A stretch of DNA of 64,000 nt, taken from positions 38,455-102,454 of the forward strand of contig NZ_LT629967.1 of assembly GCF_900104665.1 (NCBI RefSeq). The letters are read 5' to 3'. Shown here one piece after another: positions 1 through 19,520 of the stretch (its first letter is position 1; the number at the start of each line of letters is the position of its first letter). Under the pieces are notes generated by a model that saw only the letters and a list, made by a program, of their open reading frames with translations, ran no database searches and had not been told where the DNA came from. The position numbers were made by a program, and so were the translations under genes. This stretch comes from Traorella massiliensis (GTDB lineage Bacteria > Bacillota_I > Bacilli_A > Erysipelotrichales > Erysipelotrichaceae).

Positions 1-93
1 GAGGAAATCCTCATTATGAAAGGAAGAAACAGACTCAATGGAATCAATTTCTTCCTCTTTTAAATTTAAAGCATTAATGATAGAATGATTCAT
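1..93 (-). CDS. Unidentified protein, N-terminal 31 residues only
   Basis: An ATG at 91-93 on the minus strand follows a strong ribosome binding site (AAAGGAGG, five bases before the start) and opens a frame that runs without a stop to the window edge. The 31 visible residues begin MNHSIINALNLKEEEID and are acidic and soluble. I do not recognise the family. The repeated AT-rich units just upstream (129-222) resemble the multi-repeat ends of some insertion sequences, so this may be the start of a transposase, but the visible part carries no diagnostic motif. Confidence 0.5.
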   Translation of the reverse strand, partial: MNHSIINALNLKEEEIDSIESVSSFHNEDFL

Positions 94-128
94 AGCTACC
101 TCCTTTGATAAGAATGAAATAGACCAGT

Positions 129-222
129 AAAATTCTATCAAAGCGAGGTAGTTTTTTTAACCCCATCTAAAATTTAAAGCGAGGAAAGTCTTATCCCACT
201 CAAAATTTAAAGCAGGGGTCAT
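129..222. repeat. Short repeated units, probable insertion-sequence end
   Basis: Three related direct units are visible: one at 129-147 (AAAATT, six bases, AAAGCGAGG), one at 169-185 (TAAAATTTAAAGCGAGG) and one at 201-218 (CAAAATTTAAAGCAGGGG). The last two are also preceded by similar CCC-containing sequence. Repeated subterminal units next to a gene start are typical of the ends of IS21-like and related elements. The outer boundary may lie near 222 (GGGGTCA), but no target duplication can be tested because the other end lies outside the window. Confidence 0.4.
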
Positions 223-1476
223 TTCCCACGATAATTTAATATACCGTTTTTTGATTAAAAATATTCCAATCAAAACAAAAACAATTCTCTTTACTTCAAA
301 GTTTAAAACATTTATTATTTTACTGGAGGTTTTTATGAAGAGTATCAGAGGAATATTATTTGATGTAGATGATACATTATATTCACATAAACAGCACAGA
401 ATACCTGAGCTTACAAAGTATACTATTAAAAAACTGAAAGAAAATGGATATATTTTAGGAATGTGTACATCACGTTTTCCAAGAGAATTCTGCTCTTTAC
501 CTGAAAATATTTTTGATGACTTTGACTTAATAATAGCAGGAACAGGTTCTATTTATATTAGAGATGGGAAAATACTGCATATAGAAAAAATAAATGAGAG
601 TGATACACAAAAGTATATAAATTACCTTGATCAACAAGATAGTTTATATTATTTGTGGACACCTGTGGAAGGACAGCCTCATTTCTCCAGCGAGCCTAGC
701 GAAAATATAAAAAAACATCATTTAGAATGGGCAAAAGACTGCCCGACTGTTCAAAAATGGAATAAAGAGGCATTATGTAATATTGTCTATTATGGAGCAA
801 ACGAAAAGCAGACACAGGAAATTATTGACCTCGTGGGTGAAAAAGGTTTAGAAATTTGGGGAAACAACGGTCATATTAATCCTAACAATATTGATAAAGC
901 ATATGGAATCAAGTATTTTAGTAAATTATATAATTTAGACTTAAAGGAAATTCTATGTTTTGGTGATGGCATCAATGATATCAGTATGATCAAAGCTGCA
1001 GGAATGGGCGTAGCTGTAGGAAATGGTAAAGATGAATTAAAAAAACAGGCTGATTATATTTGTGATCCAATTGAAAATGCTGGTATTTACACTTTTTGTG
1101 TAGATCATCACTTAATTGATCCAATTGATCCAACGATATTCTTTTTTGATATTGATGGCACTACCTTTAGAAACGATATTCAAGCATCACCTGAATCTAC
1201 AATCTCAACAATTCATGCATTAAGAAAAAAAGGAAAAAAATGTTGTATCTGTACTAGTAGAAGCAGTGATGAAATGATTCATTTACCTAAATCTTTTCTG
1301 AATATGTTTAATGCGATCATTCGTTTGGCTGGCGGACATATTACTATAGATGGTAAAGATTTTTATCATGAAGTAAATCATGATGAAGTTTGCCAAGCTA
1401 TAAAATATTTAGATCAAAATAAGATTCCCTATCGTTATGTAACGGCCGATGAAAAAAGTTACCTTTATAATTCCAC

Positions 1477-1480
1477 TGAT
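1477..1480. other. Left attachment junction (attL core TGAT)
   Basis: TGAT at 1477-1480 is the last sequence shared between the left host flank and the right junction at 12518-12521. Large serine recombinases of the TndX/TnpX group exchange strands at a GA dinucleotide; the only GA inside this shared core is at 1478-1479. The HAD reading frame stops being host-like immediately after it. Confidence 0.8.
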
Positions 1481-1490
1481 GTAGGACGGA

Positions 1491-1501
1491 TTTTGCGGAC
1501 A
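1491..1501 (+). repeat. Left subterminal inverted repeat of the element
   Basis: TTTTGCGGACA lies 10 bases inside the left end and is the exact reverse complement of TGTCCGCAAAA at 12459-12469, near the right end. It may be part of the recombinase binding region. Confidence 0.6.
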
Positions 1502-1535
1502 TTCAAAATAAAAAAGAATGTGGAGGTAACAGACA

Positions 1536-1910
1536 ATGGCAAAATCATTATTTGAGGAACTGGGCGGCAAATACGAAAGGCAAGGGGATTATTTGATACC
1601 GTGCTTAACTGTACCCGCCGAAGAAGAACAGGCAATAGGCATCTGGGGGCAACGGCATTTAGATTATCTAAAACAGTACCGTAAAGTTACATACACCAAT
1701 CTTCTTACAAGCGGCAGGCTAAACGCCTACCTTGCCGACATCAACAGACAGGCACAGGAACGCTTTGAAAGGCTCATAGAGGGTATGAAACAGGCACAGG
1801 GCATAACGGAACAGCTAAAGGCAGAAAACGCCTTAGAATGGACAGGATGCCTCAATAACATAAGGGCTTGTGCGAGGGAGATTGTGGAAAAGGAAATTAT
1901 TTTTGCATAA
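1536..1910 (+). CDS. tnpV: TnpV family transposon-encoded protein
   Basis: This 124-residue protein begins MAKSLFEELGGKYERQGDYLIPCL, the typical opening of TnpV proteins, and continues with the conserved TYTNLLTSGRLNAYLADINRQAQ segment. TnpV is a small protein of unproven function found at the end of Tn4451-type and related mobilizable elements. The ATG at 1536 follows GTGGAGGTAACAGAC, a good ribosome binding site. It is the first gene inside the element's left end and overlaps the out-of-phase tail of the interrupted HAD frame by 20 bases. It has no membrane segment. The family assignment is firm; the role in transposition is not known. Confidence 0.85.
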   Translation: MAKSLFEELGGKYERQGDYLIPCLTVPAEEEQAIGIWGQRHLDYLKQYRKVTYTNLLTSGRLNAYLADINRQAQERFERLIEGMKQAQGITEQLKAENALEWTGCLNNIRACAREIVEKEIIFA

Positions 1911-1967
1911 ACAGATGATTAGTGGCAGGGGGAAATCCTGCCGCTTTTTCTGCTTTAGTTTGTCAGC

Positions 1968-1996
1968 TTGACAAATAAAGGGTTAAGGAATATAAT
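1968..1996 (+). promoter_or_regulatory. Promoter of tet(O)
   Basis: A consensus -35 TTGACA (1968-1973) and -10 TATAAT (1991-1996) are separated by 17 bases. This is a near-perfect housekeeping promoter, placed upstream of the leader peptide and attenuator of the tet gene. Confidence 0.85.
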
Positions 1997-2028
1997 TAGA
2001 TTCAGTATTATACAAGGAGTTAATAAAT

Positions 2029-2052
2029 ATGCGGCAAGGTATTCTTAAATAA
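2029..2052 (+). CDS. Seven-residue tet leader peptide (MRQGILK)
   Basis: ATG 2029 follows CAAGGAGT and encodes MRQGILK then TAA. The coding bases GGTATTCTTAAATAAACTG overlap the 5' arm of a pairing with CAGTTTAAGAATACT at 2128-2142. Short leader peptides with this arrangement precede tet(M)/tet(O)-class genes; translation of the leader is thought to decide which hairpins form, coupling ribosome speed under tetracycline to read-through. Confidence 0.65.
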   Translation: MRQGILK

Positions 2053-2203
2053 ACTGTCAATTTGATAGTGGGAACAAAAAGTAGCAGTCCCGTTTCACTT
2101 TTAATATGGGGCTTAGTTTTTTGTACCCAGTTTAAGAATACTTTTATCATGTAATTTTATATGCCCGAAAACATATAAGTGTTTTGGGGCTATTGGAGTT
2201 ATT

Positions 2204-2240
2204 TACCCAGTGATAGGAGTATTTATCACTGGGTATTTTT
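2204..2240 (+). terminator. Attenuator terminator in the tet(O) leader
   Basis: A perfect 12-bp stem, TACCCAGTGATA (2204-2215) with TATCACTGGGTA (2224-2235), is followed by TTTTTATG. It lies between the promoter and tet(O) and has the form of a rho-independent terminator. With the leader peptide it is a standard attenuator for ribosomal-protection tetracycline genes. The 1911-2276 gap holds only these regulatory parts. Confidence 0.8.
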
Positions 2241-2276
2241 ATGCCCTTTTTTGGGTGTTGATAGGAGGAAAATCAC

Positions 2277-4196
2277 ATGAAAATAATTAACTTAGGCATT
2301 CTGGCTCACGTTGACGCAGGAAAGACAACATTAACGGAAAGTTTATTGTATACCAGTGGTGCAATTGCAGAACTAGGGAGCGTAGATGAAGGCACAACAA
2401 GGACAGATACAATGAATTTGGAGCGTCAAAGGGGAATCACTATCCAGACAGCAGTGACATCTTTTCAGTGGGAGGATGTAAAAGTCAACATTATAGATAC
2501 GCCAGGCCATATGGATTTTTTGGCGGAAGTATACCGTTCTTTATCCGTATTAGACGGAGCAGTATTATTAGTTTCTGCAAAGGATGGCATACAGGCACAG
2601 ACCCGTATACTGTTTCATGCACTACAGATAATGAAGATTCCGACAATTTTTTTCATCAATAAAATTGACCAAGAGGGGATTGATTTGCCAATGGTATATC
2701 GGGAAATGAAAGCAAAGCTTTCTTCGGAAATTATAGTGAAGCAAAAGGTTGGGCAGCATCCCCATATAAATGTAACGGACAATGACGATATGGAACAGTG
2801 GGATGCGGTAATTATGGGAAACGATGAACTATTAGAGAAATATATGTCAGGGAAACCGTTTAAAATGTCAGAACTGGAACAGGAAGAAAACAGGAGATTC
2901 CAAAACGGAACGTTATTTCCCGTTTATCACGGAAGCGCTAAAAACAATCTGGGGATTCGGCAGCTTATAGAAGTAATTGCCAGTAAATTTTATTCATCAA
3001 CGCCTGAAGGTCAATCTGAACTATGCGGGCAGGTTTTTAAGATTGAATATTCAGAGAAAAGGCGGCGTTTTGTTTATGTGCGTATATATAGCGGAACATT
3101 GCATTTGAGGGATGTTATTAGAATATCTGAAAAAGAGAAAATAAAAATCACAGAGATGTGTGTTCCGACAAACGGTGAATTATATTCATCCGATACAGCC
3201 TGCTCTGGTGATATTGTAATTTTACCAAATGATGTTTTGCAGCTAAACAGTATTTTGGGGAACGAAATACTGTTGCCGCAGAGAAAATTTATTGAAAATC
3301 CTCTCCCTATGCTCCAAACAACGATTGCAGTAAAGAAATCTGAACAGCGGGAAATATTGCTTGGGGCACTTACAGAAATTTCAGATGGCGACCCTCTTTT
3401 AAAATATTATGTGGATACTACAACGCATGAGATTATACTTTCTTTTTTGGGGAATGTGCAGATGGAAGTCATTTGTGCCATCCTTGAGGAAAAATATCAT
3501 GTGGAGGCAGAAATAAAAGAGCCTACTGTTATATATATGGAAAGACCGCTTAGAAAAGCAGAATATACCATCCACATAGAAGTCCCGCCAAATCCTTTCT
3601 GGGCTTCTGTCGGGTTGTCCATAGAGCCGCTCCCTATTGGAAGCGGAGTGCAGTATGAAAGCAGAGTTTCACTTGGATATTTAAATCAATCGTTCCAAAA
3701 TGCGGTTATGGAGGGGGTTCTTTATGGCTGCGAGCAGGGGCTGTATGGATGGAAAGTGACAGACTGTAAAATCTGTTTTGAATATGGATTGTATTATAGT
3801 CCTGTAAGTACCCCCGCAGACTTTCGGCTGCTTTCCCCTATCGTATTGGAGCAGGCTTTAAAAAAAGCAGGGACAGAACTATTAGAGCCATATCTCCACT
3901 TTGAAATTTATGCACCGCAGGAATATCTCTCACGGGCGTATCATGATGCTCCAAGGTATTGTGCAGATATTGTAAGTACTCAGATAAAGAATGACGAGGT
4001 CATTCTGAAAGGAGAAATCCCTGCTAGATGTATTCAAGAATACAGGAACGATTTAACTTATTTCACAAATGGGCAGGGAGTCTGCTTGACAGAGTTAAAA
4101 GGATACCAGCCAGCTATTGGTAAATTTATTTGCCAACCCCGCCGCCCGAATAGCCGTATAGATAAGGTTCGGCATATGTTCCACAAGTTAGCTTAA
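2277..4196 (+). CDS. tet(O): Tet(O) ribosomal protection protein (tetracycline resistance)
   Basis: A 639-residue, EF-G-like GTPase that binds tetracycline-stalled ribosomes and releases the drug. The G-domain motifs are AHVDAGKTT (10-18), DTPGH and NKID, followed by the usual translation-factor domains and a C-terminal segment ending [13 protein letters not shown]. The length matches the family. The N-terminal region, the [16 protein letters not shown] segment and the C-terminus all read as Tet(O), not Tet(M) or Tet(W), from memory of these proteins. Mosaic O/32/O forms cannot be excluded without alignment. Expression is governed by the promoter, leader peptide and attenuator upstream. The segment is less GC-rich than the transposon backbone, so it was probably acquired separately. 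Confidence 0.93.
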
Positions 4197-4247
4197 CAGC
4201 TTGCAAAAGTCATATAAAATGAGATTTGAAAGGATTAGAGACTAATT

Positions 4248-4421
4248 ATGATGAAATGCGAATGGATATTGTGTCCTGTTTGTGGGAGCAAAACCCGTAA
4301 TAAAATTAGGAAGGACACTGTTTTGGAGAATTATCCCCTTTATTGTCCAAAATGCAGACAAGAAAGATTGATTAAAGTTGACAACTTGAAGATAACTGTC
4401 ATCAAAGAGCCAGACGCTTAA
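4248..4421 (+). CDS. Cysteine-rich KTR family protein
   Basis: A 57-residue protein beginning MMKCEWILCPVCGSKTRNKI. Two pairs of cysteines, CPVC and CPKC, form a likely zinc ribbon, with the KTR motif just after the first pair. These small proteins are regularly found next to tetracycline-resistance or transposon genes in Firmicutes; their function is not known. The gene starts 52 bases after tet(O) and is followed by a strong terminator, so it is probably on the same transcript. Confidence 0.75.
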   Translation: MMKCEWILCPVCGSKTRNKIRKDTVLENYPLYCPKCRQERLIKVDNLKITVIKEPDA

Positions 4422-4427
4422 GACGCA

Positions 4428-4474
4428 GAGCCGATGAAATTGTGGAACAATTCACGAATCATCGGCTCTTTTTG
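4428..4474 (+). terminator. Rho-independent terminator after the tet(O)/KTR unit
   Basis: GAGCCGATGA (4428-4437) pairs with TCATCGGCTC (4459-4468), followed by TTTTTG. It closes the resistance transcript. The rest of the gap to 4908 contains an AT-rich imperfect hairpin at 4551-4590, then a promoter and an attenuator for the next gene. Confidence 0.85.
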
Positions 4475-4714
4475 TTTCGTATTTGAAAGAACAAACTCAC
4501 CAAATAAAAAAAACGATATTCGGGTGGGTTATTTTGTTATACCCTAAATTACCCTCTGAATTTGTTTTTAAATTTGGAGGGATTTTTTTATGTCCTTTTT
4601 TCGGGCAGTTATCTATCTGCTCATACGAAGCAAAATTTATCAATACATAGCATATCAGAGAACGGCAGGAAACCAGTTAAAAAAATTTCTGCCAGTGCAA
4701 CGGTACTTCTCACC

Positions 4715-4744
4715 TTGAAAGTAGAAGTACAATCTCCATACAAT
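4715..4744 (+). promoter_or_regulatory. Promoter upstream of the sigma-like gene cluster
   Basis: TTGAAA (4715-4720) and TACAAT (4739-4744) are separated by 18 bases. The predicted start lies near 4751, just before the terminator hairpin at 4763-4797. Confidence 0.5.
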
Positions 4745-4762
4745 AGAATTACTATTTCCTAT

Positions 4763-4797
4763 AACCGTAAAGGTCACAGAGCCTTTGCGGTTTTTCT
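4763..4797 (+). terminator. Leader terminator (attenuator candidate) before the sigma-like genes
   Basis: AACCGTAAAGG (4763-4773) pairs with CCTTTGCGGTT (4782-4792), one mismatch, followed by TTTTTCTTTT-type sequence. It lies between the promoter at 4715-4744 and the gene starting at 4909, so a transcript from that promoter must pass it. This suggests control by anti-termination, which is an inference. Confidence 0.7.
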
Positions 4798-4908
4798 TTT
4801 GTCGATTTTTGTTGGAAAGTGCCGTAGGGCTGTTTCTGATATGCGGTGTCGTTCTCCGCCTCTCCATCTGGATTTTTTACATTTCAAAAATTCAGATGGG
4901 AGGTATTT

Positions 4909-5421
4909 ATGGTGAAATATGCACCAAGAAAGGTATATATCAGAGAAAGTGGCGGCTATGTGGAATTATCCTACACGGAGTTCTGCCGTTGCAGGGAATC
5001 CGACCAGACCTATATGGACAAGCTGTTTATCCCCATTCAAGGCTGTCTGCTTGAAGTCGTGAGGGAGCAATACACAGACTTCTACCGTGACAAGGAACGG
5101 TGGCGTTATCTGCAAAAATTAGATACAAAGAATAGACTGCTATCTCTCGACGGATTTACGGACAGCGAGGGGAATCCTCTGGACTTTATCACTGATGAAG
5201 CGGTGGACATTGCAGAAACCGTTGTCAATGCGGTCATGGTGGACAGGCTGAAAGCCGCCCTGCCTTTGCTGTCGGATAGTGAACAGGAGCTGATACAGGC
5301 AATCTTTTTTGACGGACTTTCCGAGCGTGAAGTCGGGGCGAGGTTGGGCATAACCCAGAGCGTTGTAAACAAACGCAAAGCCAGAATCCTAATAAAACTA
5401 AGAAAGATAATAGAAAATTAA
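4909..5421 (+). CDS. Sigma-70 region 4-like HTH protein of the transposon
   Basis: A 170-residue protein starting MVKYAPRKVYIRE at ATG 4909 behind GGGAGG. The C-terminal third, LPLLSDSEQELIQAIFFDGLSEREVGARLGITQ and onward, reads as a sigma-70 region 4 type helix-turn-helix. The N-terminal part has no recognised domain. Proteins of this type sit in Tn916-like and Tn4451-like elements and are thought to regulate element genes. It is followed by a hairpin with a T-run and then by a second, similar HTH gene. Confidence 0.75.
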   Translation: MVKYAPRKVYIRESGGYVELSYTEFCRCRESDQTYMDKLFIPIQGCLLEVVREQYTDFYRDKERWRYLQKLDTKNRLLSLDGFTDSEGNPLDFITDEAVDIAETVVNAVMVDRLKAALPLLSDSEQELIQAIFFDGLSEREVGARLGITQSVVNKRKARILIKLRKIIEN

Positions 5422-5435
5422 AATTTAAGGCGTTC

Positions 5436-5478
5436 AGCCCCCTTGTTTTTTCCTTTGGGAAGATGAGGGGGCTTTTCT
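5436..5478 (+). terminator. Hairpin between first and second sigma-like genes
   Basis: AGCCCCCT (5436-5443) pairs with AGGGGGCT (5466-5473) and is followed by TTTCTC. It can act as a terminator or attenuator ahead of the gene at 5516. Confidence 0.6.
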
Positions 5479-5515
5479 CTGCCCTCTCAATCAATTCTGA
5501 TTGGAGGAAGTAAGA

Positions 5516-5941
5516 ATGGCATACAACCACGGACGGGAGGACAGGAAATGGCGTATCTGGAAAGAAGCGGAGGAAAAGCTGCTGCGTGAGTGCGGCGTTG
5601 ATGAAGCGACCATTGAGCAGATACGCATGGCGGACAGGGCAGACTTCAATTCCAACAGGCGGTTTTACCGATGGACGAATGACGTTGCGGAATATCTTGA
5701 GGACATGGCAGGCAGGGAGCGGCAGGCGGAAGTGGGTACGGTTGCGGAGTTACTGGAAGAGATTGAGAGCGAAAATCTCTATCAAGTATTAGTCACGGTG
5801 GACGGGCGTACCTTGAAAATCGTCCTGCTGAAAATGCAGGGGTATTCCACAAAGGAGATTGCCCCGCTTGTGCATTTGACGACTGGTGCCATCTATGCGA
5901 GGTTAGACCATCTGCGGAAGAAGCTGCGGAAAATTTTATAG
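5516..5941 (+). CDS. Second sigma-70-like HTH protein
   Basis: A 141-residue protein that starts MAYNHGREDRKWRIWKEAEE at ATG 5516, behind GGAGGAAG. The C-terminal part, LLKMQGYSTKEIAPLVHLTTGAIYARLDHLRKKLRKI, is a sigma region 4 type helix-turn-helix. The N-terminal half is charged and unassigned. It lies in a run of three related small regulators and is followed by another hairpin. A role in controlling mobilization or recombination genes is likely from context only. Confidence 0.75.
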   Translation: MAYNHGREDRKWRIWKEAEEKLLRECGVDEATIEQIRMADRADFNSNRRFYRWTNDVAEYLEDMAGRERQAEVGTVAELLEEIESENLYQVLVTVDGRTLKIVLLKMQGYSTKEIAPLVHLTTGAIYARLDHLRKKLRKIL

Positions 5942-5976
5942 CTTCTAAAACAGCCTGCCATCCTGCGGGCTACTGG

Positions 5977-6008
5977 GTGAGGGATGGAAATCCCCTCACT
6001 CATTTTTT
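5977..6008 (+). terminator. Hairpin between second and third sigma-like genes
   Basis: GTGAGGG (5977-5983) pairs with CCCTCAC (5993-5999), followed by TCATTTTTT. It is a terminator-like hairpin just before the ribosome binding site of the gene at 6025. Confidence 0.65.
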
Positions 6009-6024
6009 GCAGGAGGACAACAGG

Positions 6025-6195
6025 ATGGCATACAGGGTTAAGGCATACACGCTTCGGGAGGAATCCACGGAAAGCGGCACAAGGTATTTTATCAGCTTTA
6101 AGGACGGGCAGGGCAAATCCCACGAGTTGGAAGTGTCGGAACAGTTCTTTATGGAGTTTCGGCAGATGGAGCGCAGGAACAGGAATCTTTTCTAA
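6025..6195 (+). pseudogene. Third sigma-like gene, 5' part ended by a premature TAA
   Basis: ATG 6025, behind GGAGGACAACAGG, opens a 56-residue frame MAYRVKAYTLREESTESGTRYFISF ending at TAA 6193-6195. The same frame stays open immediately afterwards (WDERHREFNEVWDETLYRRAL) and leads into an HTH-containing C-terminus. A CAA to TAA change would explain the break. Either the gene is inactive, or a short 56-residue product and a separately started C-terminal piece are made. Confidence 0.7.
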
Positions 6196-6777
6196 TGGGA
6201 CGAGCGGCACAGGGAGTTTAACGAGGTATGGGACGAAACCCTTTACAGACGGGCGTTGCGTGTGCCTAAGAGCCTTGATGAACGCATGGTTGAGGAAGAA
6301 CGGAATGAAACGCTCTATAAGGCGGTTGGGAGCCTTCCAGAGATACAAAGGCGGCGTTTCCTGCTCTACTACGAGTATGAGTTCAATTTTTACCAAATCG
6401 CCGCTATGGAGCATTGCACCGCTTCGGCAATACAGAAATCTGTTGCGATTGCAAAGGAGAAAGTAAAGGCGGAAATTGAAGAAATATCTCCAACCGTGAC
6501 CGACACCGCCCGAAAAAGAAATCTGTTTTTTATTTGTGTGGGATTGGCGGCATTACATACTCTCACTTTTTTCCGTGGGAGTAAATCTATTTTTAAGGAG
6601 GTCAACGCCTATGTGCAACGAAAACAAAGACACCGCCCGAAAGGAGGAAAGCCATGCAGAAGTTACAGACAGTCAACGCCGAAACGCTCCTTTATGAACC
6701 GCTTGAGAAACCATCCTTTGTGGTGGACAGCCTTATCCCGACAGGCTTATCGCTGTTCTGCGGCTCACAGAAGATAG
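6196..6777 (+). pseudogene. Third sigma-like gene, 3' part after the premature stop
   Basis: The frame in phase with 6025-6195 continues WDERHREFNEVWDE, then RVPKSLDERMVEEERNETLY and an HTH segment LPEIQRRRFLLYYEYEFNFYQIAAMEHCTASAIQKSVAIAKEKV, clearly sigma region 4-like. After about base 6480 the reading looks unlike the family and runs into the next gene, so the natural C-terminus probably lay near 6490-6500 and a second small frameshift is possible. An internal TTG at 6256 could start translation, but no good ribosome binding site is obvious. Confidence 0.6.
6611..6697 (+). CDS. Possible 28-residue peptide overlapping the RepA-like start
   Basis: ATG 6611 has an excellent ribosome binding site (AAGGAGG at 6596-6602) and encodes a 28-residue charged peptide beginning MCNENKDTARKEESHAEV, ending at TGA 6695-6697. 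It overlaps the first 44 bases of the ATPase gene in another frame. It may serve to couple translation into the ATPase gene. It resembles no family I know. Confidence 0.4.
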   Translation: MCNENKDTARKEESHAEVTDSQRRNAPL

Positions 6778-7679
6778 GCAAAAGCTGGCTCATGCTGAAG
6801 CTATGCTTATGCGTGTCGCAGGGAATCCCTTTATGGGATATGCCGACAATGGAGGGCGATGTGCTTTACCTCTGCCTTGAGGACACGTTCTGCCGCATAC
6901 AGGACAGGTTATTTCGTTTGACGGACGAAGCAAGCGGGCGGCTCCACTTTGCCGTGGCAAGCTGCAAGCTGTCAGACGGTCTTATCGTGCAGCTTGAAGA
7001 TTATCTGAAAGATTACCCAGACAGCAGGCTCATTGTCATTGATACCTTGCAGAAAGTCCGTACAGCTTCAAAAGACAATGCCTATGCAAGCGACTATGGG
7101 GACATCTCCCTCATCAAAGACTTTGCCGACAGGCACTCTCTGGCGGTCATTGTCGTACACCACATCCGAAAGCAGAATGACAGCGACGTGTTCAACAAGG
7201 TGTCTGGGACGACAGGATTAACGGGGAGTGCGGACGCTACCTTTGTTCTGGAAAAGGAGAAACGTGCGTCTGACACCGCCAAGCTGTATGTGACGGGCAG
7301 GGACACGCCTTATCAGGAATACACGCTGCGTTTCCGTGATTGCCGTTGGGAGCTTGTGGAGCGGAAAACGCAGGAGCAGCTTGCGAAAGAAACGATACCA
7401 GATGTCCTTTTTCGGTTGGTGGATTTTATGAGGGATAAGGAAGAATGGATAGGCACGGCAACGGAACTGTTAGCCGCTATGGGGGAAACGGAAACCATAC
7501 CCACGGTGATTACGAAATGGCTGAATGAATACCGCACCACATTTTTAAGCGAGAACCGTATCTGCTACCAGTACAGCCGCAGGAAAGACGGCAGGCGGAT
7601 TGCCCTTGCAAGGAGGGCGGGTGACAGCGGTGATGGTGGTGACAGCGATATTAGGATACCCCCCTGTTACTGTCATTGA
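6654..7679 (+). CDS. RepA-like RecA-fold ATPase (AAA_25 type)
   Basis: A 341-residue protein with Walker A GSQKIGKS (37-44), a Walker B-like LIVIDTL near residue 127, and a VVHHIRK segment, the layout of plasmid RepA-type hexameric helicases. In mobilizable elements this gene is likely to unwind or replicate the excised circle. ATG 6654 is preceded by AAAGGAGG. The last residues GDSGDGGDSDIRIPP are encoded by the first copy of the origin-like repeat module (7621-7677), so the 3' end doubles as a cis-acting site. Confidence 0.75.
   Translation: MQKLQTVNAETLLYEPLEKPSFVVDSLIPTGLSLFCGSQKIGKSWLMLKLCLCVSQGIPLWDMPTMEGDVLYLCLEDTFCRIQDRLFRLTDEASGRLHFAVASCKLSDGLIVQLEDYLKDYPDSRLIVIDTLQKVRTASKDNAYASDYGDISLIKDFADRHSLAVIVVHHIRKQNDSDVFNKVSGTTGLTGSADATFVLEKEKRASDTAKLYVTGRDTPYQEYTLRFRDCRWELVERKTQEQLAKETIPDVLFRLVDFMRDKEEWIGTATELLAAMGETETIPTVITKWLNEYRTTFLSENRICYQYSRRKDGRRIALARRAGDSGDGGDSDIRIPPCYCH
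7621..7677 (+). repeat. Origin-like module, copy A
   Basis: GTGACAGCGGTGATGGTGG, then TGACAGCGATATTAGGATACC and a C-run, ending near TGTCAT. It overlaps the last 19 codons of the ATPase gene. Confidence 0.7.
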
Positions 7680-7718
7680 CGCTTAAAGCCATGTAAAGCT
7701 GGCGGCTCTGCCCTGCGG

Positions 7719-7771
7719 GTGACAGCAGTGACGGTGGTGACAGTGATTTTAGGATACCCTGCCGCTGTCAT
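7719..7771 (+). repeat. Origin-like module, copy B
   Basis: Same orientation as copy A: GTGACAGCAGTGACGGTGG, TGACAG, TTTTAGGATACCCTGCC and a closing GCTGTCAT. Confidence 0.7.
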
Positions 7772-8016
7772 CCCTACGGGAGAACACCCCGTAAACGCAA
7801 AATGCAGGCGTGAGATTTACTCGCCCTTTTCGGTCGTGTAAAACCACCCCTGCGGTCAGAAAAATCATTCCGATTTTTCCGACTGCGTTTACAGGGTGTA
7901 ACACACTACACTTTGCCCTGCAAAGTCGTGTGCCAGACGTTCCCTCTGGACTCCCTTAAGGCAGGGCTGTGCCCTGCTATCCTACGCCTTACGGCTTCGG
8001 ATAAAAGAATGGCGGC

Positions 8017-8082
8017 ATGACGGTGACGGCTCTTGCGAGGGGGGTATCCCAAAAACACCGTCATCATCGACATGACCGTCAT
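8017..8082 (-). repeat. Origin-like module, copy C (inverted, most diverged)
   Basis: Read on the minus strand: ATGACGGTCATG, GATGATGACGGTG, TTTTTGGGATACCCCCC, then CGTCACCGTCAT. It keeps the GGGATACCC core but differs from the others in the flanking GTGACAG parts. Confidence 0.65.
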
Positions 8083-8095
8083 GCAGGGGGTGAGG

Positions 8096-8160
8096 GTGAC
8101 AGTTGCGGCAGTCGGCAGGGGGTATCCCAAAACTGCTGTCACCACCGTCACCGCTGTCAC
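8096..8160 (-). repeat. Origin-like module, copy D (inverted)
   Basis: Read on the minus strand: GTGACAGCGGTGACGGTGG, TGACAGCAG, TTTTGGGATACCCCC, ending AACTGTCAC. It is nearly identical to copies A and B over the first 25 bases. Confidence 0.7.
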
Positions 8161-8203
8161 CCCAAAGGACGGTCACCCGCCGAAAGAAAGGAGGAATCCG
8201 CCT

Positions 8204-9169
8204 ATGCCTTATGCAATCCTGCGTTTCCAGAAACGAAAAGCGGGCGGCGTTGCGGCTTGTGAACGCCACAACGAGCGGAAGAAAGAAGCCTACAAAAGCA
8301 ACCCAGATATAGATATGGAACGCTCTAAAAACAATTACCATCTCATAGCACCACCAAAGTACACCTACAAGAAAGAGATTAACCGCATGGTAGCCGAAGC
8401 GGGGTGCAGGACAAGGAAAGACAGCGTGATGATGGTGGAAACGCTCATCACAGCTTCACCAGAATTTATGAACCAGTTACCGCCCGAAGAACAAAAAGCG
8501 TATTTCCAGACGGCTCTTGACTTCATTTCGGAGCGTGTTGGAAAGCAGAATATCCTCTCCGCTGTCGTCCATATGGACGAGAGAACGCCCCATATGCACC
8601 TCTGCTTTGTGCCGATTACGCCAGACAATAAGCTGTCAGCGAAAGCTATCTTAGGCAACCAGAAATCATTATCCGAGTGGCAGACCGCCTACCATGAGCG
8701 GATGTCCTCACGGTGGAATCAGCTTGAACGGGGGCAGTCCTCAATGGAAACCAAGCGGAAACACGTCCCCACATGGCTCTATAAATTAGGCGGCAGGCTT
8801 GATAAACAGTATGAAGAAATCGTGTCTGCCCTATCCGACATCAACGCCTTTAACGCAGGGAAGAAAAGGGATAAAGCGTTAGATTTACTCTCTGCATGGC
8901 TGCCAGACGTGGAGAAATTCTCTAAGGAAATCGGGAAACAGCAGGCGTATATCGACAGTTTGAAAGAGAGAATTGGGCAGGAATCAGACTATGCGGGGCG
9001 TATGCGTGATGAAAAGTACGAGCAGGAACTAAAGGTGCAGAAAGCGAATCAGAAGATATTTGAATTGCAGAGAACCAACGAGCAGATGGGGCGGCTGCTG
9101 TCAAAAATACCGCCCGAAGTGTTGGAAGAATTGCAGAAAAATCATAGAAGCAGAGCGAAAGAAAGGTAG
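8204..9169 (+). CDS. MobV-family relaxase (Mob/Pre)
   Basis: A 321-residue protein starting MPYAILRFQKRKAGGVAACERHN at ATG 8204, behind GAAAGGAGG. The upstream open frame is repeat DNA and not part of the protein. The N-terminal RHN motif (21-23) and the H-x-D-E-R-T-P-H-x-H stretch (H123, H130, H132) are the metal-binding relaxase signature of Mob_Pre enzymes. The C-terminal third is rich in charged residues and likely coiled coil. The enzyme should nick the element's transfer origin, probably in the adjacent repeat block, letting a co-resident conjugative system move the circle. Confidence 0.85.
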   Translation: MPYAILRFQKRKAGGVAACERHNERKKEAYKSNPDIDMERSKNNYHLIAPPKYTYKKEINRMVAEAGCRTRKDSVMMVETLITASPEFMNQLPPEEQKAYFQTALDFISERVGKQNILSAVVHMDERTPHMHLCFVPITPDNKLSAKAILGNQKSLSEWQTAYHERMSSRWNQLERGQSSMETKRKHVPTWLYKLGGRLDKQYEEIVSALSDINAFNAGKKRDKALDLLSAWLPDVEKFSKEIGKQQAYIDSLKERIGQESDYAGRMRDEKYEQELKVQKANQKIFELQRTNEQMGRLLSKIPPEVLEELQKNHRSRAKER

Positions 9170-9177
9170 ATATGTGA

Positions 9178-10032
9178 ATGAAGAAACAGGATTTTAAGGT
9201 GTTAAAGACCAAAGACTTGTACCCGTTCCCCGACAATCCGTTTCATGTGGCAGAAGATGAAACACTGTCAGAGTTAGCGGAAAGCATCAAGGAATTTGGC
9301 ATTGTCACGCCGATAATCACACGCCCGAAAGAGGACGGGGACGGTTATGAAGTGATTGCAGGACAGCGGCGTGTCCGTGCTTCTGAACTTGCAGGGATAA
9401 ATACCGTGCCTGCGTTTGTCCTGCCCTTAGACCGTGACCGAGCCATCATCACCCTTGTAGACAGCAATTTGCAGCGTGAGAATATCCTGCCATCGGAGCG
9501 GGCGTTTGCTTACAAGATGAAATCCGAAGCCATGAAGCGGCAGGGTTTCCGCACAGACTTAACCTCGTCACAAGTTGTGACGAAGTTGCGGACGGACGAC
9601 AAGGTGGCACAGGGCTTCGGCGTGGGCAGGATGACCGTGCAGCGTTTTATCCGCCTGACGGAACTGATACCGCCGATTTTGCAGATGGTGGACGAGGGGA
9701 AAATCGCCCTCACGCCTGCGGTGGAACTGTCCTTCTTGAAGAAAGACGAGCAGGAAAACCTCTTTGCCACGATGGAGAGCGAAGAAGCAACGCCCTCACT
9801 CTCACAGGCACAGCGGATGAAACAGTTAAGCCAGAGCGGGCGGCTTGACATGGATACGATATTTGCGATTATGACGGAGGAAAAGGGCAACCAGAAAGAA
9901 ACCTTGAAAATCAACACAAGCAAGCTGAAAAAATACTTTCCGAAGAACACAACGCCGAAGCAGATGGAGGAAACCATCATCAAACTTTTGGAGCGTGAGT
10001 TGCAGAGGAAACGCAACCGTGACAGCCGCTAA
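9178..10032 (+). CDS. ParB/RepB/Spo0J-type partition protein
   Basis: A 284-residue protein with the ParB N-terminal nuclease-like fold: LYPFPDNPFHVAEDETLSELAESIKEFG, then VTPIITRP and EVIAGQRRVRASE, followed by a central HTH (QGFGVGRMTVQRFIRLTELI). It starts at ATG 9178, eight bases after the relaxase stop, so it is in the same operon. No ParA partner is present, as in many mobilizable elements, where these proteins may act in maintenance or regulation of the excised form. Confidence 0.85.
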   Translation: MKKQDFKVLKTKDLYPFPDNPFHVAEDETLSELAESIKEFGIVTPIITRPKEDGDGYEVIAGQRRVRASELAGINTVPAFVLPLDRDRAIITLVDSNLQRENILPSERAFAYKMKSEAMKRQGFRTDLTSSQVVTKLRTDDKVAQGFGVGRMTVQRFIRLTELIPPILQMVDEGKIALTPAVELSFLKKDEQENLFATMESEEATPSLSQAQRMKQLSQSGRLDMDTIFAIMTEEKGNQKETLKINTSKLKKYFPKNTTPKQMEETIIKLLERELQRKRNRDSR

Positions 10033-10077
10033 TCTTCTTTTTTCGGGAAGTAAATACAGAGAGTTGAGGTATGGAGA

Positions 10078-10308
10078 ATGAGAGAAATCCAGTATGAAAT
10101 CGTAAAGGAAATCGCAGTATTGTCTACGGGCGACAGTGGCTACACAAAGGAAATCAATCTCATTTCATGGAATGGGAAAGAGCCGAAGTATGACATCCGC
10201 AGCTTTTCCCCGAACCGTGAAAAGTGCGGCAAGGGAATCACGCTGAACGCTGATGAAGCGGCGGCACTCCTTAAAGCATTACAGAAAGAATTAAACAGCG
10301 AGGATTAA
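10078..10308 (+). CDS. PC4/YdbC-like ssDNA-binding protein
   Basis: A 76-residue protein, MREIQYEIVKEIAVLSTGDSGYTKEINLISWNG, then KYDIRSFSPNREKCGKGITL and a helix with AAALLKALQKEL. The strand-rich part followed by one helix fits the YdbC/PC4 family, which binds single-stranded nucleic acid as a dimer. Placement between parB and the recombinase gene suggests a role with the element's single-stranded DNA. The stop overlaps the next start (TAATG). Confidence 0.7.
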   Translation: MREIQYEIVKEIAVLSTGDSGYTKEINLISWNGKEPKYDIRSFSPNREKCGKGITLNADEAAALLKALQKELNSED

Positions 10309-10571
10309 TGGTATCTGATTGGCAGGGCGGGGACATTTCCAAACTCTTCCCTGCCCTGTCTGGAAAGGAAGATTTAAGTATGGGCGAGGATAAGAAAGCA
10401 GATAAAAAGAGAAAGCGTATCGTGCCAAAAGCACCAGTGCAGATGATAATCAGCCGTGAATATGTCGGCACACAGACCGTTACAGAAGCGTTTGTCCCGA
10501 TTATCTCCGAGGATATTCGGAAGAAGATTGCCGAGGGCGACACCTTCGACAATGAGGGGCTGTCCGCTTAG
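10308..10571 (+). CDS. Small conserved transposon protein, function unknown
   Basis: The frame gives 87 residues from ATG 10308, which overlaps the previous stop, or 63 residues from ATG 10380, which has a better ribosome binding site (GGAAAGGAAG). The protein is basic in the middle (KKADKKRKRIVPKAP) and ends with ISEDIRKKIAEGDTFDNEGLSA. I do not recognise a domain. It sits directly before the recombinase gene, so it could be a recombination accessory protein, but nothing in the sequence proves this. Confidence 0.6.
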   Translation: MVSDWQGGDISKLFPALSGKEDLSMGEDKKADKKRKRIVPKAPVQMIISREYVGTQTVTEAFVPIISEDIRKKIAEGDTFDNEGLSA

Positions 10572-10625
10572 AATGTACGCAATGGGACATGAAAACAGAT
10601 AGGACAGATACGGAGGTTTTACAGT

Positions 10626-12482
10626 ATGGCAGGAATCAAAGAAGAAAAGAAAATCTATTTAGTCGGCATTTATTGCCGCTTATCTAAAGACGATGGTACG
10701 GATAACGAGAGTGCGAGCATTGCGACACAGAAATCCATCCTCACGGATTATGTGAAAAAGCAGGGATGGCACATAGCAAAAACGTATGTGGACGATGGTT
10801 ATTCTGGTACAAATTTCCAAAGACCAAGTTTCCAGAATATGATAAAAGACATTGAAAGCGGTCTGATAAACTGCGTGATTACGAAAGATTTATCCCGTCT
10901 GGGGAGAAACTATCTTGATTGTGGGTTATATCTGGAAGTTTTCTTCCCAGAGCATAACGTGAGGTATATAGCGGTCAATGACGGCGTAGATACCTTGAAT
11001 AAATCTGCTATGGACATCACGCCTTTCCGCAACATTTTAAACGAAATGTATGCCGCTGACATATCTGTTAAGATAAAATCGGCATATCGGGCGAGGTTTC
11101 AACAGGGGAAATTCATGGGAACTACCGCCCCTTATGGCTATATCAAAGACCCTGCCGACCACAACCATCTGCTGATAGATGATAAAGTGGCACATGTTGT
11201 AAAAGAGATATTCGACCTTGCATTAAAAGGGAATGGAGTTGCCAAAATTTGCAGACATCTTAATAAACAGCATATCCTACGCCCTGCCGCTTATGCGGCG
11301 GAGCGTGGCGAAACAGGCTTTGAACGTCATTTTGAGGGGAACGAGGACAAACGCTATATTTGGAGTGGGAACAGCGTGAGGAGCATTTTAAGAAGCCCGA
11401 TATATGCGGGAAATCTTGTAGGCTACAAACGGATTGCCGCCAATATGAAAAGCAAGAAACGCCCCTCTAAGCTGCCCGAAGAATGGGAAGTGATACCCAA
11501 TACCCATGAGGGAATAGTCACGCAGGAGGAATTTGATATTGTCCAACAGCTTATTACAAGTCGTAGGCTTCCACAGAACAAGGGAGGATTTGTAAATATT
11601 TTTGCAGGCGTTATCAAGTGTGTGGACTGCGGATGTGCTCTGCGGGCAATGAACGTACACAGGAGGAAACGCCCAGAGATTATCGACTGTGTACAGTATT
11701 CATGTAATAATTATGCAAGAAACGGAAGAAGCGAGTGTAGTGCCCACAATATAGAAGCAAGGGATTTATTCAATGCCGTTCTTGCCGACATCAACTGTTT
11801 TGCGGATATGGCAGTGAATGATGAAAAGGCGGTCAGGGCCATAGAAAAGCGGCTCACGGAAACAGACCAGAGCAGGGCGAAAGCATTAGAGAAAGAACGT
11901 AAGAAGCTGAACAAACGCCTTGCGGAACTGGACAGGCTGTTTTCCTCTCTCTACGAGGATAAGGTCATGGAGCGTATTACCGAGCGGAATTTTGAGATGA
12001 TGTCGGGGAAATACCAGAAAGAGCAGCTTGAAATTGAAGCAAGGCTGAAAGAGGTGACGGAAACTCTTAATGAAAGCTACGAGAAATCACGGGGAATCCG
12101 TGACTTCCTCGCCCTTATCCGAAATTATCAAGGCTTAAAAGAACTGGATGCAACAGTTATAAACGCACTCATAGACAAGATACTTGTTTCGGAGCGTGAG
12201 AAGATGGCAGACGGAACAGTGAAGCAGGAAATCAAGATTTACTATAAATTCATCGGCTTTGTCGATGAATTACATATCATACCTACAAAACGGTGGGCAG
12301 CAATGCCCGCTAAAAATTGTACGGTGTGCGGCGTTGAATATGTCCCGGGCTCTGGTGCATCAAGGTATTGTCCTGCTTGTGCCAAGAAGATACGGAGGGA
12401 GAAATCAAACGAGAGCAAACGCAGGAGCAGAGAACAGAAAAGGATAGCATGTATGAACTGTCCGCAAAAAATGACCGACTGA
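10626..12482 (+). CDS. Large serine recombinase (TndX/TnpX type)
   Basis: A 618-residue site-specific recombinase. The N-terminal resolvase domain has the catalytic serine at residue 20 (YCRLSKDDG) and the TKDLSRLGRN motif. The recombinase domain follows, then a zinc-ribbon region (CVDCGCALRA), a long coiled coil (roughly 410-500) and a C-terminal second cysteine cluster (CTVCGVEY, CPACAKK). It should cut at a GA dinucleotide and integrate or excise the element as a circle. The stop at 12480-12482 lies 39 bases from the right junction, the usual position. The right subterminal inverted repeat is inside its 3' end. Confidence 0.92.
   Translation: MAGIKEEKKIYLVGIYCRLSKDDGTDNESASIATQKSILTDYVKKQGWHIAKTYVDDGYSGTNFQRPSFQNMIKDIESGLINCVITKDLSRLGRNYLDCGLYLEVFFPEHNVRYIAVNDGVDTLNKSAMDITPFRNILNEMYAADISVKIKSAYRARFQQGKFMGTTAPYGYIKDPADHNHLLIDDKVAHVVKEIFDLALKGNGVAKICRHLNKQHILRPAAYAAERGETGFERHFEGNEDKRYIWSGNSVRSILRSPIYAGNLVGYKRIAANMKSKKRPSKLPEEWEVIPNTHEGIVTQEEFDIVQQLITSRRLPQNKGGFVNIFAGVIKCVDCGCALRAMNVHRRKRPEIIDCVQYSCNNYARNGRSECSAHNIEARDLFNAVLADINCFADMAVNDEKAVRAIEKRLTETDQSRAKALEKERKKLNKRLAELDRLFSSLYEDKVMERITERNFEMMSGKYQKEQLEIEARLKEVTETLNESYEKSRGIRDFLALIRNYQGLKELDATVINALIDKILVSEREKMADGTVKQEIKIYYKFIGFVDELHIIPTKRWAAMPAKNCTVCGVEYVPGSGASRYCPACAKKIRREKSNESKRRSREQKRIACMNCPQKMTD
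12459..12469 (-). repeat. Right subterminal inverted repeat of the element
   Basis: TGTCCGCAAAA is the exact reverse complement of 1491-1501. It lies inside the last codons of the serine recombinase gene, 52 bases from the right junction, so the spacing to the two ends is not symmetric. Confidence 0.55.
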
Positions 12483-12517
12483 ATTTGTACGTGGATTATT
12501 TAAGTATCAGTATGGCA

Positions 12518-12521
12518 TGAT
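12518..12521. other. Right attachment junction (attR core TGAT)
   Basis: TGAT at 12518-12521 matches the left junction. From 12522 the frame reads TTRKKYENEK and continues into the HAD C-terminus, in phase with the left flank, so a crossover here would rebuild the uninterrupted gene. Confidence 0.8.
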
Positions 12522-12905
12522 ACCACCAGAAAAAAATATGAAAATGAAAAAGTGATACATCTTCAATATTATCCTTATAAAGAATCACAAAACAATGATT
12601 TAGATAAGATATTTATGAAATCTAAAGTTACTCATTTAAATATTTCTCATGAAATCACACAAGAAAATACCGATAAAGGCAGTGCTATTTTAAAAGTTGC
12701 GGAATACTATGGCTATAATCGTGAGAACACCGTAGCTTTTGGAGATGGTGAAAATGATATAACAATGTTGAAAAATGCTCAAATCGGTATTGCGATGGGA
12801 AATGCATGTCAACAATGTCTGGATGTTGCTGATTATGTAACAGAGAGAATTGAAGATGATGGATTATATAATGCCTGTAAGCATTTTAAGTGGATCGAAT
12901 CTTAA
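12522..12905 (+). pseudogene. 3' part of the interrupted tandem HAD gene
   Basis: The frame reads TTRKKYENEKVIHLQYYPYK and on to motif IV VAFGDGENDITML with GIAMGNACQQ, ending at TAA 12903-12905. It is the C-terminal 127 residues of the second HAD unit begun at 335. No good ribosome binding site precedes it; a GTG at 12552 could start a 117-residue fragment, but it would lack the nucleophile motif. Confidence 0.85.
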
Positions 12906-12928
12906 ATCAAACCTATTATTTTTGTCAA

Positions 12929-12956
12929 AAAAAGGTGATCATAAAATCACCTTTTT
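12929..12956. terminator. Bidirectional terminator between HAD remnant and MazG-like gene
   Basis: AAAAAGGTGAT (12929-12939) pairs with ATCACCTTTTT (12946-12956), with A and T runs on both sides, between convergent genes. Confidence 0.85.
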
Positions 12957-12992
12957 AATATAATCAAAAGTTTTTCAGACCTGTAAAGTAAT

Positions 12993-13340
12993 TTACTTCA
13001 CATAGTCAGTTTCATCATTTCTATTCATTGATTTTTCTTTTTCAAAGCCATCAGGATACCTTTGCGCAAGCTTATCCAGATTCATTTGAAAAATACTTTC
13101 TAAATCATAATCAAGCGCATAAGCCGTTTCTGCGAGATACCACGCTACATCTCCAAGTTCTTTCGCTAACTTTTCACGATTCAGTTCATGACCCTGTGCC
13201 AAATGTTTTTTCACAAGATCAATCACTTCTCCAGACTCTCCGCAAAGCCCCATAACGCCATTAATCAACACTTCAGATTTTGAGAGTGACGGATTCAGCG
13301 TACGCAACGCCTGTTTTTGATAATCATTTGCTTTCATCAT
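12993..13340 (-). CDS. MazG-like nucleotide pyrophosphohydrolase
   Basis: A roughly 115-residue protein starting MMKANDYQKQALRTLNPSL; the start at 13340 overlaps the end of trxB by 17 bases, and the frame farther upstream is trxB shadow. The motif GLCGESGEVIDLVKK followed by ELGDVAWYLAE is the MazG-type EExxE and D metal site. Such enzymes hydrolyse non-canonical or excess nucleoside triphosphates. It is the last gene of the uvrA-hprK-lgt-trxB run and is translationally coupled to trxB. Confidence 0.85.
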   Translation of the reverse strand: MMKANDYQKQALRTLNPSLSKSEVLINGVMGLCGESGEVIDLVKKHLAQGHELNREKLAKELGDVAWYLAETAYALDYDLESIFQMNLDKLAQRYPDGFEKEKSMNRNDETDYVK

Positions 13341-14244
13341 GCTTTTTAATGTAATGGAAGGCGCTCTGAGCTGCAATTGCCCCATCGCCTGCTGCTGTTA
13401 CCACCTGGCGAATCGTTTTCTTTCGAACATCCCCTGCCGCAAAAATTCCTTCAACAGCCGTCGCCATTTCTTCATCAGTTACAATATAACCATGTTCATC
13501 ACAAATACCCAGATCTTTCGCATAAGATGTAATTGGATCTGAACCTACATATGGGAATACTGCACTTGTTTCCATAACATACTCTTCATTTGTCACAACA
13601 TTTTTTACTCTGATCCCATTCACTCTTTTGCCATCATCCAATATTTCCAAAGGAACGATTTTTTTCATGATTTCAATCTTATCATTCGCATAGGCTTCAT
13701 CCTGAATATTTTTATCCGCACGCAGCTCATTTCTTACCAAAACATTAACTTTGCTTGCAAACTGCGTTAAATAAGAAGCTTCTTCTAAAGCACTGTTTCC
13801 TCCACCGATAACGGTAATCACTTTATTTTTGAAAAATGCACCATCACAAATCGCACAATAGGAAACCCCACGACCTACATTCTTTTCTTCGCCTGGAATA
13901 TTTAACTTACGTTCTAATGTCCCCGTCGCAAGAATCAGTGCCTTACCCGTAATTTTACTATCATCAGTACAGATAACCGTTTTCCCTTCTATCTTGCTGA
14001 CTTCACCAACAATATATTCAGCACCTAAATGAGTCGCATGATTCAATAGATTCATGGCTAGCGTTGTCCCTTCCATTGATTCAATACCTGGATAATTCTC
14101 AATATGTGCTGTCTTCACAAGCTTTCCACCTGGCGCATATGATTCTAACACCGCTACAGACAGACCGCTTCTTGCACCATAAATGGCAGCACTTAGTCCT
14201 GCTGGACCACCACCTACCACAACAAGGTCGAATTGTCGCTCCAT
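13324..14244 (-). CDS. trxB: Thioredoxin reductase
   Basis: A 306-residue flavoprotein with an N-terminal FAD fold GGGPAG (11-16), the redox pair C130-A-I-C133, a second nucleotide-binding GGGNSA and a C-terminal FAD motif FAAGDVR. It uses NADPH to reduce thioredoxin in the cytoplasm. The length is typical. The start follows GAAGGAGGAAAGAG and overlaps the end of the lgt-ppaX fusion by 31 bases, so the two are translationally coupled. Confidence 0.95.
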   Translation of the reverse strand: MERQFDLVVVGGGPAGLSAAIYGARSGLSVAVLESYAPGGKLVKTAHIENYPGIESMEGTTLAMNLLNHATHLGAEYIVGEVSKIEGKTVICTDDSKITGKALILATGTLERKLNIPGEEKNVGRGVSYCAICDGAFFKNKVITVIGGGNSALEEASYLTQFASKVNVLVRNELRADKNIQDEAYANDKIEIMKKIVPLEILDDGKRVNGIRVKNVVTNEEYVMETSAVFPYVGSDPITSYAKDLGICDEHGYIVTDEEMATAVEGIFAAGDVRKKTIRQVVTAAGDGAIAAQSAFHYIKKHDESK

Positions 14245-15701: not shown

Positions 15702-16648
15702 GATTCATTTCCTCCGTTCTTGTTGAACTCAATATAGCGAAGAATCCTTTCCTCGAACTCTTTAGCGCTATCCTGCCCCATGCTGCTAAGCAGATAATTC
15801 GTCACCGCTGACTCAATGATTGCTGCCATAGAACGCCCTTCTTTGACTGGAAGTTCGAGCTTTGGAATAGAAACACCTAAAATATCCTTATATTTCTTTT
15901 TTTCTATACCTACACGATCATAATCTTTTTCGACTTGCCATGGTTCTAAATGAATATTTAAATCTATCTTCGTTTTATCTAATACACTGCTGACACCAAA
16001 CATCTTCGATACATTAATAATTCCAACACCACGTATTTCTAACATTTCTTTTAATACAGGCGGTGACTGACCGATAATTTCCTGATGCATCAAAAAACAA
16101 TCAACACGGTCATCGGCTATCAAAAGATGACCCTTTTTAATTAGTTCCAGGGCGATTTCGCTTTTACCCATACCACTCTCTCCTGTGAGCAGTACGCCTT
16201 TCCCATAGATCTGTACCAAAACTCCATGCAATGAAGTCATAGGTGCCATCTTTTCATCTAAAAAAGTAACAGTATCAATGATGACACGATAGGTTTCTTC
16301 ATGTGTACATAACACTGGAAATTTTTTTCGCTGTGCAATTTCACGAAGAAGATCCGGACACTGAGCTCCATGAGTAATGATGATACAAGGCGTTTCATCC
16401 TGTGTCAGGTATTCAAAGCTCGTGAATTGAGCCTCATGACTCATGCCCTGAATATACCCCATTTCTTTATTACCCAAAATAACGATCCTCTCACGTTGCG
16501 AATGAAGATAATAACCTGTCAATTCCAATCCGGGACGATTAGTATCCGCTACGAGAATCTCCCTTTCTAAAGAGAGTTCATCACCAGTCACTTGAACATA
16601 ATTTAAATGCTCTTTCAAATCTTTTACAGTAACTTTTCTTTCTCCCAT
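15698..16648 (-). CDS. hprK: HPr kinase/phosphorylase
   Basis: A 316-residue enzyme that phosphorylates HPr on serine 46 and reverses the reaction, controlling carbon catabolite repression. It shows the P-loop GESGMGKS (156-163), the preceding H141 and the C-terminal family signature LEIRGVGIINVSKMFGV. It begins one base after uvrA ends and overlaps lgt by four bases. The phosphorylase reaction releases pyrophosphate, which fits the PpaX-like domain encoded next. Confidence 0.96.
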   Translation of the reverse strand: MGERKVTVKDLKEHLNYVQVTGDELSLEREILVADTNRPGLELTGYYLHSQRERIVILGNKEMGYIQGMSHEAQFTSFEYLTQDETPCIIITHGAQCPDLLREIAQRKKFPVLCTHEETYRVIIDTVTFLDEKMAPMTSLHGVLVQIYGKGVLLTGESGMGKSEIALELIKKGHLLIADDRVDCFLMHQEIIGQSPPVLKEMLEIRGVGIINVSKMFGVSSVLDKTKIDLNIHLEPWQVEKDYDRVGIEKKKYKDILGVSIPKLELPVKEGRSMAAIIESAVTNYLLSSMGQDSAKEFEERILRYIEFNKNGGNES

Positions 16649-16649
16649 C

Positions 16650-19469: not shown

Positions 19470-19491
19470 AGCATCCTCCAAATTCCTTCTT

Positions 19492-19520
19492 ATTATACCC
19501 CAGTTTATCCGTCATTGAAA
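19492..19520 (-). promoter_or_regulatory. Promoter of the uvrA operon
   Basis: On the minus strand, TTTCAA and TATAAT are separated by 17 bases, with the start of uvrA about 22 bases farther on. The -10 is consensus, the -35 weak. I saw no clear LexA/DinR box. The rest of the 19482-19766 gap is AT-rich and otherwise featureless. Confidence 0.5.

Follow-up and report, generated by a model that had tools for sequence, protein, structure and literature searches.

A tet(O) mobilizable element bounded by GA cores in a tandem HAD phosphatase gene of Traorella massiliensis, and a candidate target rule for its recombinase

Results and Discussion

The stretch analysed here, hereafter the window, comprises 64,000 nt of a 2.6-Mb Traorella massiliensis genome in 9 contigs. 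One of its genes, which codes for two HAD units, is interrupted by a tet(O) element that carries genes for a MobV relaxase and a TnpX-like serine recombinase. Judged by its genes and ends, the element is an integrative mobilizable element (IME) of the published snf2/MOBV/TnpV kind, 11,003 bp in length (window 1480-12482). Our reading, to which we assign a probability of about 0.95, is that its arrival was recent and that its TnpX-like large serine recombinase inserted it at a motif-like GA site of secondary rank. This site lies in unit 2 of a gene for a tandem HAD-IIB phosphatase, which has murQ and a MurP-like phosphotransferase system (PTS) gene upstream of it. A first-pass annotation of the window had correctly recognised a mobilizable tet(O) element, as the profile matches to MobV relaxase, tet(O) and serine recombinase agree; its left end with the GA at 1478-1479 was also right. 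The right end and the conclusions drawn from it are revised below.

Ends of the element

The window was compared with three records and 80 related loci, the latter being the best 80 of 225 from a contig scan with the recombinase, giving 84 sources in total. The 11,003 bases at 1480-12482 were found letter for letter in an Enterococcus faecalis plasmid (L009) and in nine of the 80 related loci, and one 11-kb tet(O) element is therefore carried unchanged by an Enterococcus plasmid and nine other loci. By megablast, the E. faecalis plasmid records LR962153 and LR962508 show 100.0% identity to window 1476-12482 and then diverge, their own flanks beginning immediately after the GA at 12481-12482. 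As regards a candidate assignment of the recombinase to the Ser_3 integrases (a 40% identity family), the same element lies at snf2 in the E. faecalis plasmid, and a Streptococcus suis phage record holds a related one.

Both ends were seen in 45 of the 84 sources and only the right end in 37, while no right end was found by pattern in two. In all 82 copies with a right end, the element stops at the equivalent of the GA at 12481-12482, or at a TG or AA variant of it. The left and right cores of the 45 two-ended copies are GA/GA in 41, TG/TG in two, AA/GA in one and TG/GA in one; those of the 37 right-only copies are GA in 34, TG in two and AA in one. The nearest solved structure to the N-terminal domain of the recombinase is TnpX (2mhc, E 6.8e-34), and together with the 41 of 45 GA/GA cores this supports the earlier view that the recombinase is of TnpX type and uses a GA core. 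Tn4451, too, has GA as its core.

Comparison with the element-bearing records and loci thus places the left GA core (attL) at 1478-1479 and, with the intact gene of a same-genus genome as additional evidence, the right GA core (attR), which is the true right end, at 12481-12482. An 11-bp terminal inverted repeat, TTTTGCGGACA, lies at 1491-1501 on the forward strand and at 12459-12469 on the reverse strand, with equal core-to-repeat distances at the two ends; the same repeat is given in PMC9815147 (papers are cited by such numbers, from the parts of their text that were available). The right GA core completes the TGA at 12480-12482, so that the core itself provides the stop codon of the recombinase.

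The first-pass annotation had instead taken 1477-12521 as the element, with TGAT as the shared attachment (att) site and with excision restoring a 509-residue phosphatase as a switch. The frames at 1478-1480 and at 12522 are indeed in phase, and TGAT stands at both places. The comparison of att sequences among relatives, which that annotation had itself proposed, upheld the GA core but moved the right end by 39 bases, on the evidence of the plasmid records, the 80 loci and the same-genus relative. The 39 bases at 12483-12521 have no exact occurrence in the 83 other sources, and in none of the 80 right flanks of sufficient length do more than 17 of the 39 agree at the equivalent positions, whereas for the last 39 bases of the element the median agreement across 44 two-ended copies is complete (39 of 39), the lowest being 27. 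The string truly common to both junctions is ACTGA (1475-1479 and 12478-12482), and the TGAT at 12522 is a chance match. Given also the uniform stop in the 82 copies, a join that drops residues present in the relative and in 17 other tandem-HAD proteins, and only one of four target motif positions at that join (see below), we attach almost no credence to the 1477-12521 model. Two in-phase frames and a 4-bp match are insufficient for calling an att site where element-free and element-bearing relatives exist.

Several copies depart from the common pattern. TG replaces GA at both ends in L061 and L080 and at the right end in L078 and L090; these four are related elements whose recombinases show 87-88% identity to that of the window, and three of them lie at SNF2. 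L037 has AA on the left and GA on the right, and L043 has AA on the right; in such copies with unequal or AA cores, mismatch repair perhaps acted on the core once the element had inserted. L049 is a two-ended copy of 7.8 kb with an apparent internal deletion.

The interrupted gene and the fate of its frame

The product of the host gene has two HAD-IIB (Cof-type) units, as predicted from the start: Hydrolase_3 covers unit 1 fully and unit 2 partly, and the terminal portion of this profile is matched by the 3' part of the gene. The 5' part of the gene (335-1555, forward strand) holds unit 1 complete and unit 2 cut midway; after GAT 1478-1480 its frame enters the element for 24 codons and then reaches a stop. 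The 3' part (12483-12905, forward strand), placed by alignment with the relative, includes the host bases 12483-12521.

A search for genomes with the uninterrupted protein, also suggested by the first-pass annotation, was successful, but with a product of 522 rather than 509 aa. The same-genus genome G003 carries an uninterrupted tandem HAD gene that is 85% identical over the 5' part. Relatives had been expected to read straight from NSTD to TTRKKYEN; the G003 protein reads NSTE-FVRELFRYQYGMVPPE-KKYEN, through the GA, and has 13 residues more at this site than the 509-residue join, which is an artefact. A relative of this sort is what the first-pass annotation had itself named as the refutation of its model. 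Altogether, 18 of 18 aligned full-length tandem-HAD proteins, that of G003 included, continue through the insertion site.

From the true junction, where 1479 meets 12483, the host frame runs for 24 codons and then stops, because it shifts relative to the same-genus ortholog in an A-run at 12530-12536 (forward strand), about 50 bases beyond the junction. Clean excision would therefore not give back a full-length phosphatase in frame. Moreover, in other genomes the element family has SNF2 as its target in 43 of the 82 copies that could be delimited, and among 80 right flanks there is none like the HAD flank of the window. The proposed switch restoring a metabolic phosphatase is not upheld, and the sequences compared provide no evidence of a regulatory switch. 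The recombinase presumably performed the insertion and could excise the element, and the second unit of the phosphatase would have been lost. Against the relative, dN and dS are 0.087 and 0.94 for one half of the HAD gene and 0.069 and 1.07 for the other; with dN so low against dS in both halves, the loss looks recent.

This conservation of both halves until recently might also be seen as a sign of phase variation, in which excision at the true GA cores and slippage in the A-run would allow some cells to make a functional protein, homopolymer slippage being a known phenomenon. We consider this very improbable, as it is a single case, identical elements occur at unrelated sites, and a shortened ISL3-like transposase gene lies between the PTS and HAD genes, as in decay.

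A point weighing against our account of the frame is that the change may be a sequencing or assembly error, the gene being intact apart from the insertion. Homopolymer runs are common error sites. However, 32 homopolymers of the element (at least six A/T or at least five G/C) are identical to those of the independent assembly LR962153, and for this reason such an error, although possible, is not favoured and seems unlikely. A recent insertion into a gene that has also lost its frame in the A-run remains the preferred reading.

Target choice by the recombinase

The targets of the 45 two-ended copies are SNF2 genes in 24 (22 recognised by both sides and two by one), a parB-like gene in four and other sites in 17, the window included; SNF2 is also the target of 19 of the 37 right-only copies. 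SNF2 targets were recognised by a peptide pattern. The parB-like gene, recognised by the peptide TPATVR / EDGRYELISG and named by eye, is a second recurrent target (L019, L033, L037 and L039). A tRNA target was considered and rejected, there being no tRNA gene in window 1-20000.

Outside the hotspot, certain bases around the GA are favoured. In 15 of the 17 sites elsewhere (the window itself and L094, which has unequal cores, were left out), we found G at -8 in 14, C at -5 in 10, G at +6 in 13 and C at +9 in 14; the four positions were chosen from the same 15 sites that any P values would use, and significance is accordingly nominal. The right halves were then counted in a held-out set of 15, drawn from the 18 right-only loci elsewhere after leaving out L050 (no flank) and L036 and L054 (right flank the same or nearly the same as that of the SNF2-side locus L024). 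G at +6 is present in 11 and C at +9 in 10 of these; with L036 and L054 retained, the counts are 11 and 12 of 17.

When a profile made without SNF2 sites was applied to uninterrupted SNF2 genes (six records chosen by eye out of 1,283 with an SNF2 match), the hotspot ranked 1st of 792, 849, 650 and 846 GA sites in four genes and 2nd of 1,025 in a fifth (L122). In one uninterrupted gene, from E. faecalis (L119), the sequence equals the two flanks of L009 joined at the GA. Across 20 distinct SNF2 sites, the four positions hold G in 16, C in 20, G in 18 and C in 20, and each of them is the first or second base of a codon.

These observations suggest that the recombinase probably reads a short near-palindromic target, G-N2-C-N4-GA-N4-G-N2-C, the bases of which in SNF2 genes occupy the first and second codon positions, rather than the wobble position, of the helicase peptide (R/K)-P-x-D-(I/L)-x-Q. 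Since the motif uses non-wobble positions of a conserved peptide, the element would find SNF2 across otherwise differing DNA; it would thereby home to the SNF2 genes of conjugative elements in bacteria with divergent DNA, and miss into look-alikes such as the HAD gene. Several results count against such a rule. Of the held-out loci, three (L044, L072 and L092) have neither right-hand position and three more (L021, L029 and L081) have only one; two of the 15, L043 and L090, have a core other than GA; C at -5 is present in just 10 of 15 sites; and, besides the second rank in L122, the peptide pattern for SNF2 is absent from the sixth SNF2 gene (L123).

The site in the window was scored against 6,632 background GA sites in window 13001-64000. 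The true join has three of the four motif positions, and 121 background sites have three or four. Its profile score is 2.15, attained by 83 background sites, against -8.98 for the join of the first-pass annotation and a background median of -10.05; the leave-one-out scores of the 15 profile sites range from 0.06 to 9.37. Two points weigh against the strength of the HAD site as a target: the site lacks G at -8, and in the intact G003 gene it scores 0.84 and ranks only 8th of 183 GA sites. It is for these reasons not a strong target, and in our reading would be a secondary one.

The target rule is, in our view, the part of most value to follow. It offers a testable reason for the SNF2 hotspot and would aid in predicting the sites at which resistance elements of this sort occur. 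If true, it would explain a preference for snf2 whose reason is called unclear in the available text of PMC9815147. No mention of the extended motif or of the link to SNF2 codons was found in the accessible portions of the literature searched, and either may already be in print.

Gene content and genomic context

The element carries eight annotated genes, all on the forward strand. TnpV (1536-1910) matches Pfam PF14198 (E 3.4e-45). The tet(O) ribosomal protection protein (2277-4196) scores 1308 bits with NF033148, above the cut-off, and its counterpart in the identical copy from E. faecalis also has a Tet(O) prediction. These are followed by a sigma-70 region 4 protein (4846-5421, start codon provisional; profile match in the stretch scanned, 4864-5418), a sigma-like protein (5501-5941) with a weak match below the cut-off, and an AAA_25 ATPase (6654-7679) recognised by a domain match. 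The MobV relaxase (8033-9169) matches PF01076 (E 1.8e-59) and, above the cut-off, NF041497, and a ParB-like protein (9178-10032) matches TIGR00180 above the cut-off. The TnpX-like large serine recombinase (10626-12482) contains DUF4368 (PF14287). Elsewhere in the same genome (G000), contigs C7, C8 and C9 hold 11 further matches to this recombinase at 24-46% identity, two of them with internal stops, which may be other elements of this kind or their remnants.

Upstream of the HAD gene, outside the window, there are genes for a MurR/RpiR-type regulator (below curated cut-offs), murQ (TIGR00274, above the cut-off) and an EIIBC PTS protein closest to MurP (below the curated cut-off). The order murQ, EIIBC, HAD gene is kept in the same-genus relative. 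The shortened ISL3-like transposase gene (match below the cut-off) is absent there between the PTS and HAD genes.

Tandem HAD genes had been called unusual in the first-pass annotation. When 244 family genomes were searched with the intact protein, at least 23 proved to have a full-length open two-unit gene, and one further genome has a tandem gene with a stop; yet a single genus accounts for 16 of the genomes with an open gene, and only one of four same-genus genomes has a full-length copy. Elsewhere in the window, a 495-aa frame at 14214-15701 on the reverse strand, its translation read by eye, resembles a prolipoprotein diacylglyceryl transferase fused to a HAD phosphatase.

Comparison with known elements

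The closest published relatives are the IME_Class_6 tet(O) elements described in snf2 of S. suis integrative and conjugative elements (ICEs), which have the same 11-bp repeat, MOBV and TnpV (PMC9815147); PMC7168690, too, reports tet(O) IMEs at this location. According to the available text, IME_Class_6 and the window element share a length of about 11-13 kb, a serine integrase, a PF01076/MOBV relaxase, TnpV, ParB, an ATPase, tet(O) and the inverted repeat. Those elements occupy an snf2 or ppi gene of an ICE, whereas the window copy interrupts a HAD gene on the chromosome of a different bacterium. It therefore has the MOBV relaxase and the repeat of the class without the snf2 insertion, and we still group it with the snf2 IMEs because the insertion site belongs to the individual copy. 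The copy is ordinary for its kind, and its insertion site is, as far as could be found, new. Ser_3 integrases are likewise reported at snf2 in PMC5357655, in one case with a recombination site adjoining the 3' end of the integrase gene.

With Tn4451/Tn4453 (TnpX) and Tn5397 (TndX), the element shares a TnpX-related recombinase domain and a 2-bp core, which is GA for Tn5397, and, with Tn4451, a MobV relaxase. In the parts consulted, PMC5704250 describes a tet(O) fragment of ICESp2905 and gives low target specificity, a 2-bp core and a MobV relaxase for Tn4451; PMC4430133 reports a central GA without other consensus for Tn5397 in Bacillus subtilis and two preferred sites in Clostridioides difficile; and PMC4735348 states for Tn5397 in general a central GA with no further consensus. 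The window element has the TnpX-like large serine recombinase and the 2-bp GA core of this type, but it differs from Tn4451, Tn4453 and Tn5397 in carrying tet(O) and in showing a target preference beyond GA.

Multi-targeting large serine recombinases with DUF4368 are presented with target logos, and further logos in the supplement, in the available part of PMC10083194. The recombinase of the window resembles them in having DUF4368 and many target genes, more than three being known here (SNF2, the parB-like gene, the HAD gene and 16 other two-ended sites), and differs from them in its clear SNF2 hotspot. Finally, IME_Rho_tet, whose gut IMEs spread ribosomal-protection tet genes via a serine recombinase and have 21-bp terminal inverted repeats (PMC12904643, as far as its text was available), is similar as a serine-recombinase IME with such a tet gene and terminal inverted repeats; unlike the window element, it has mostly MAFF2-type targets, mostly tet(W), and, in its canonical form, other genes (methyltransferase, mobC).

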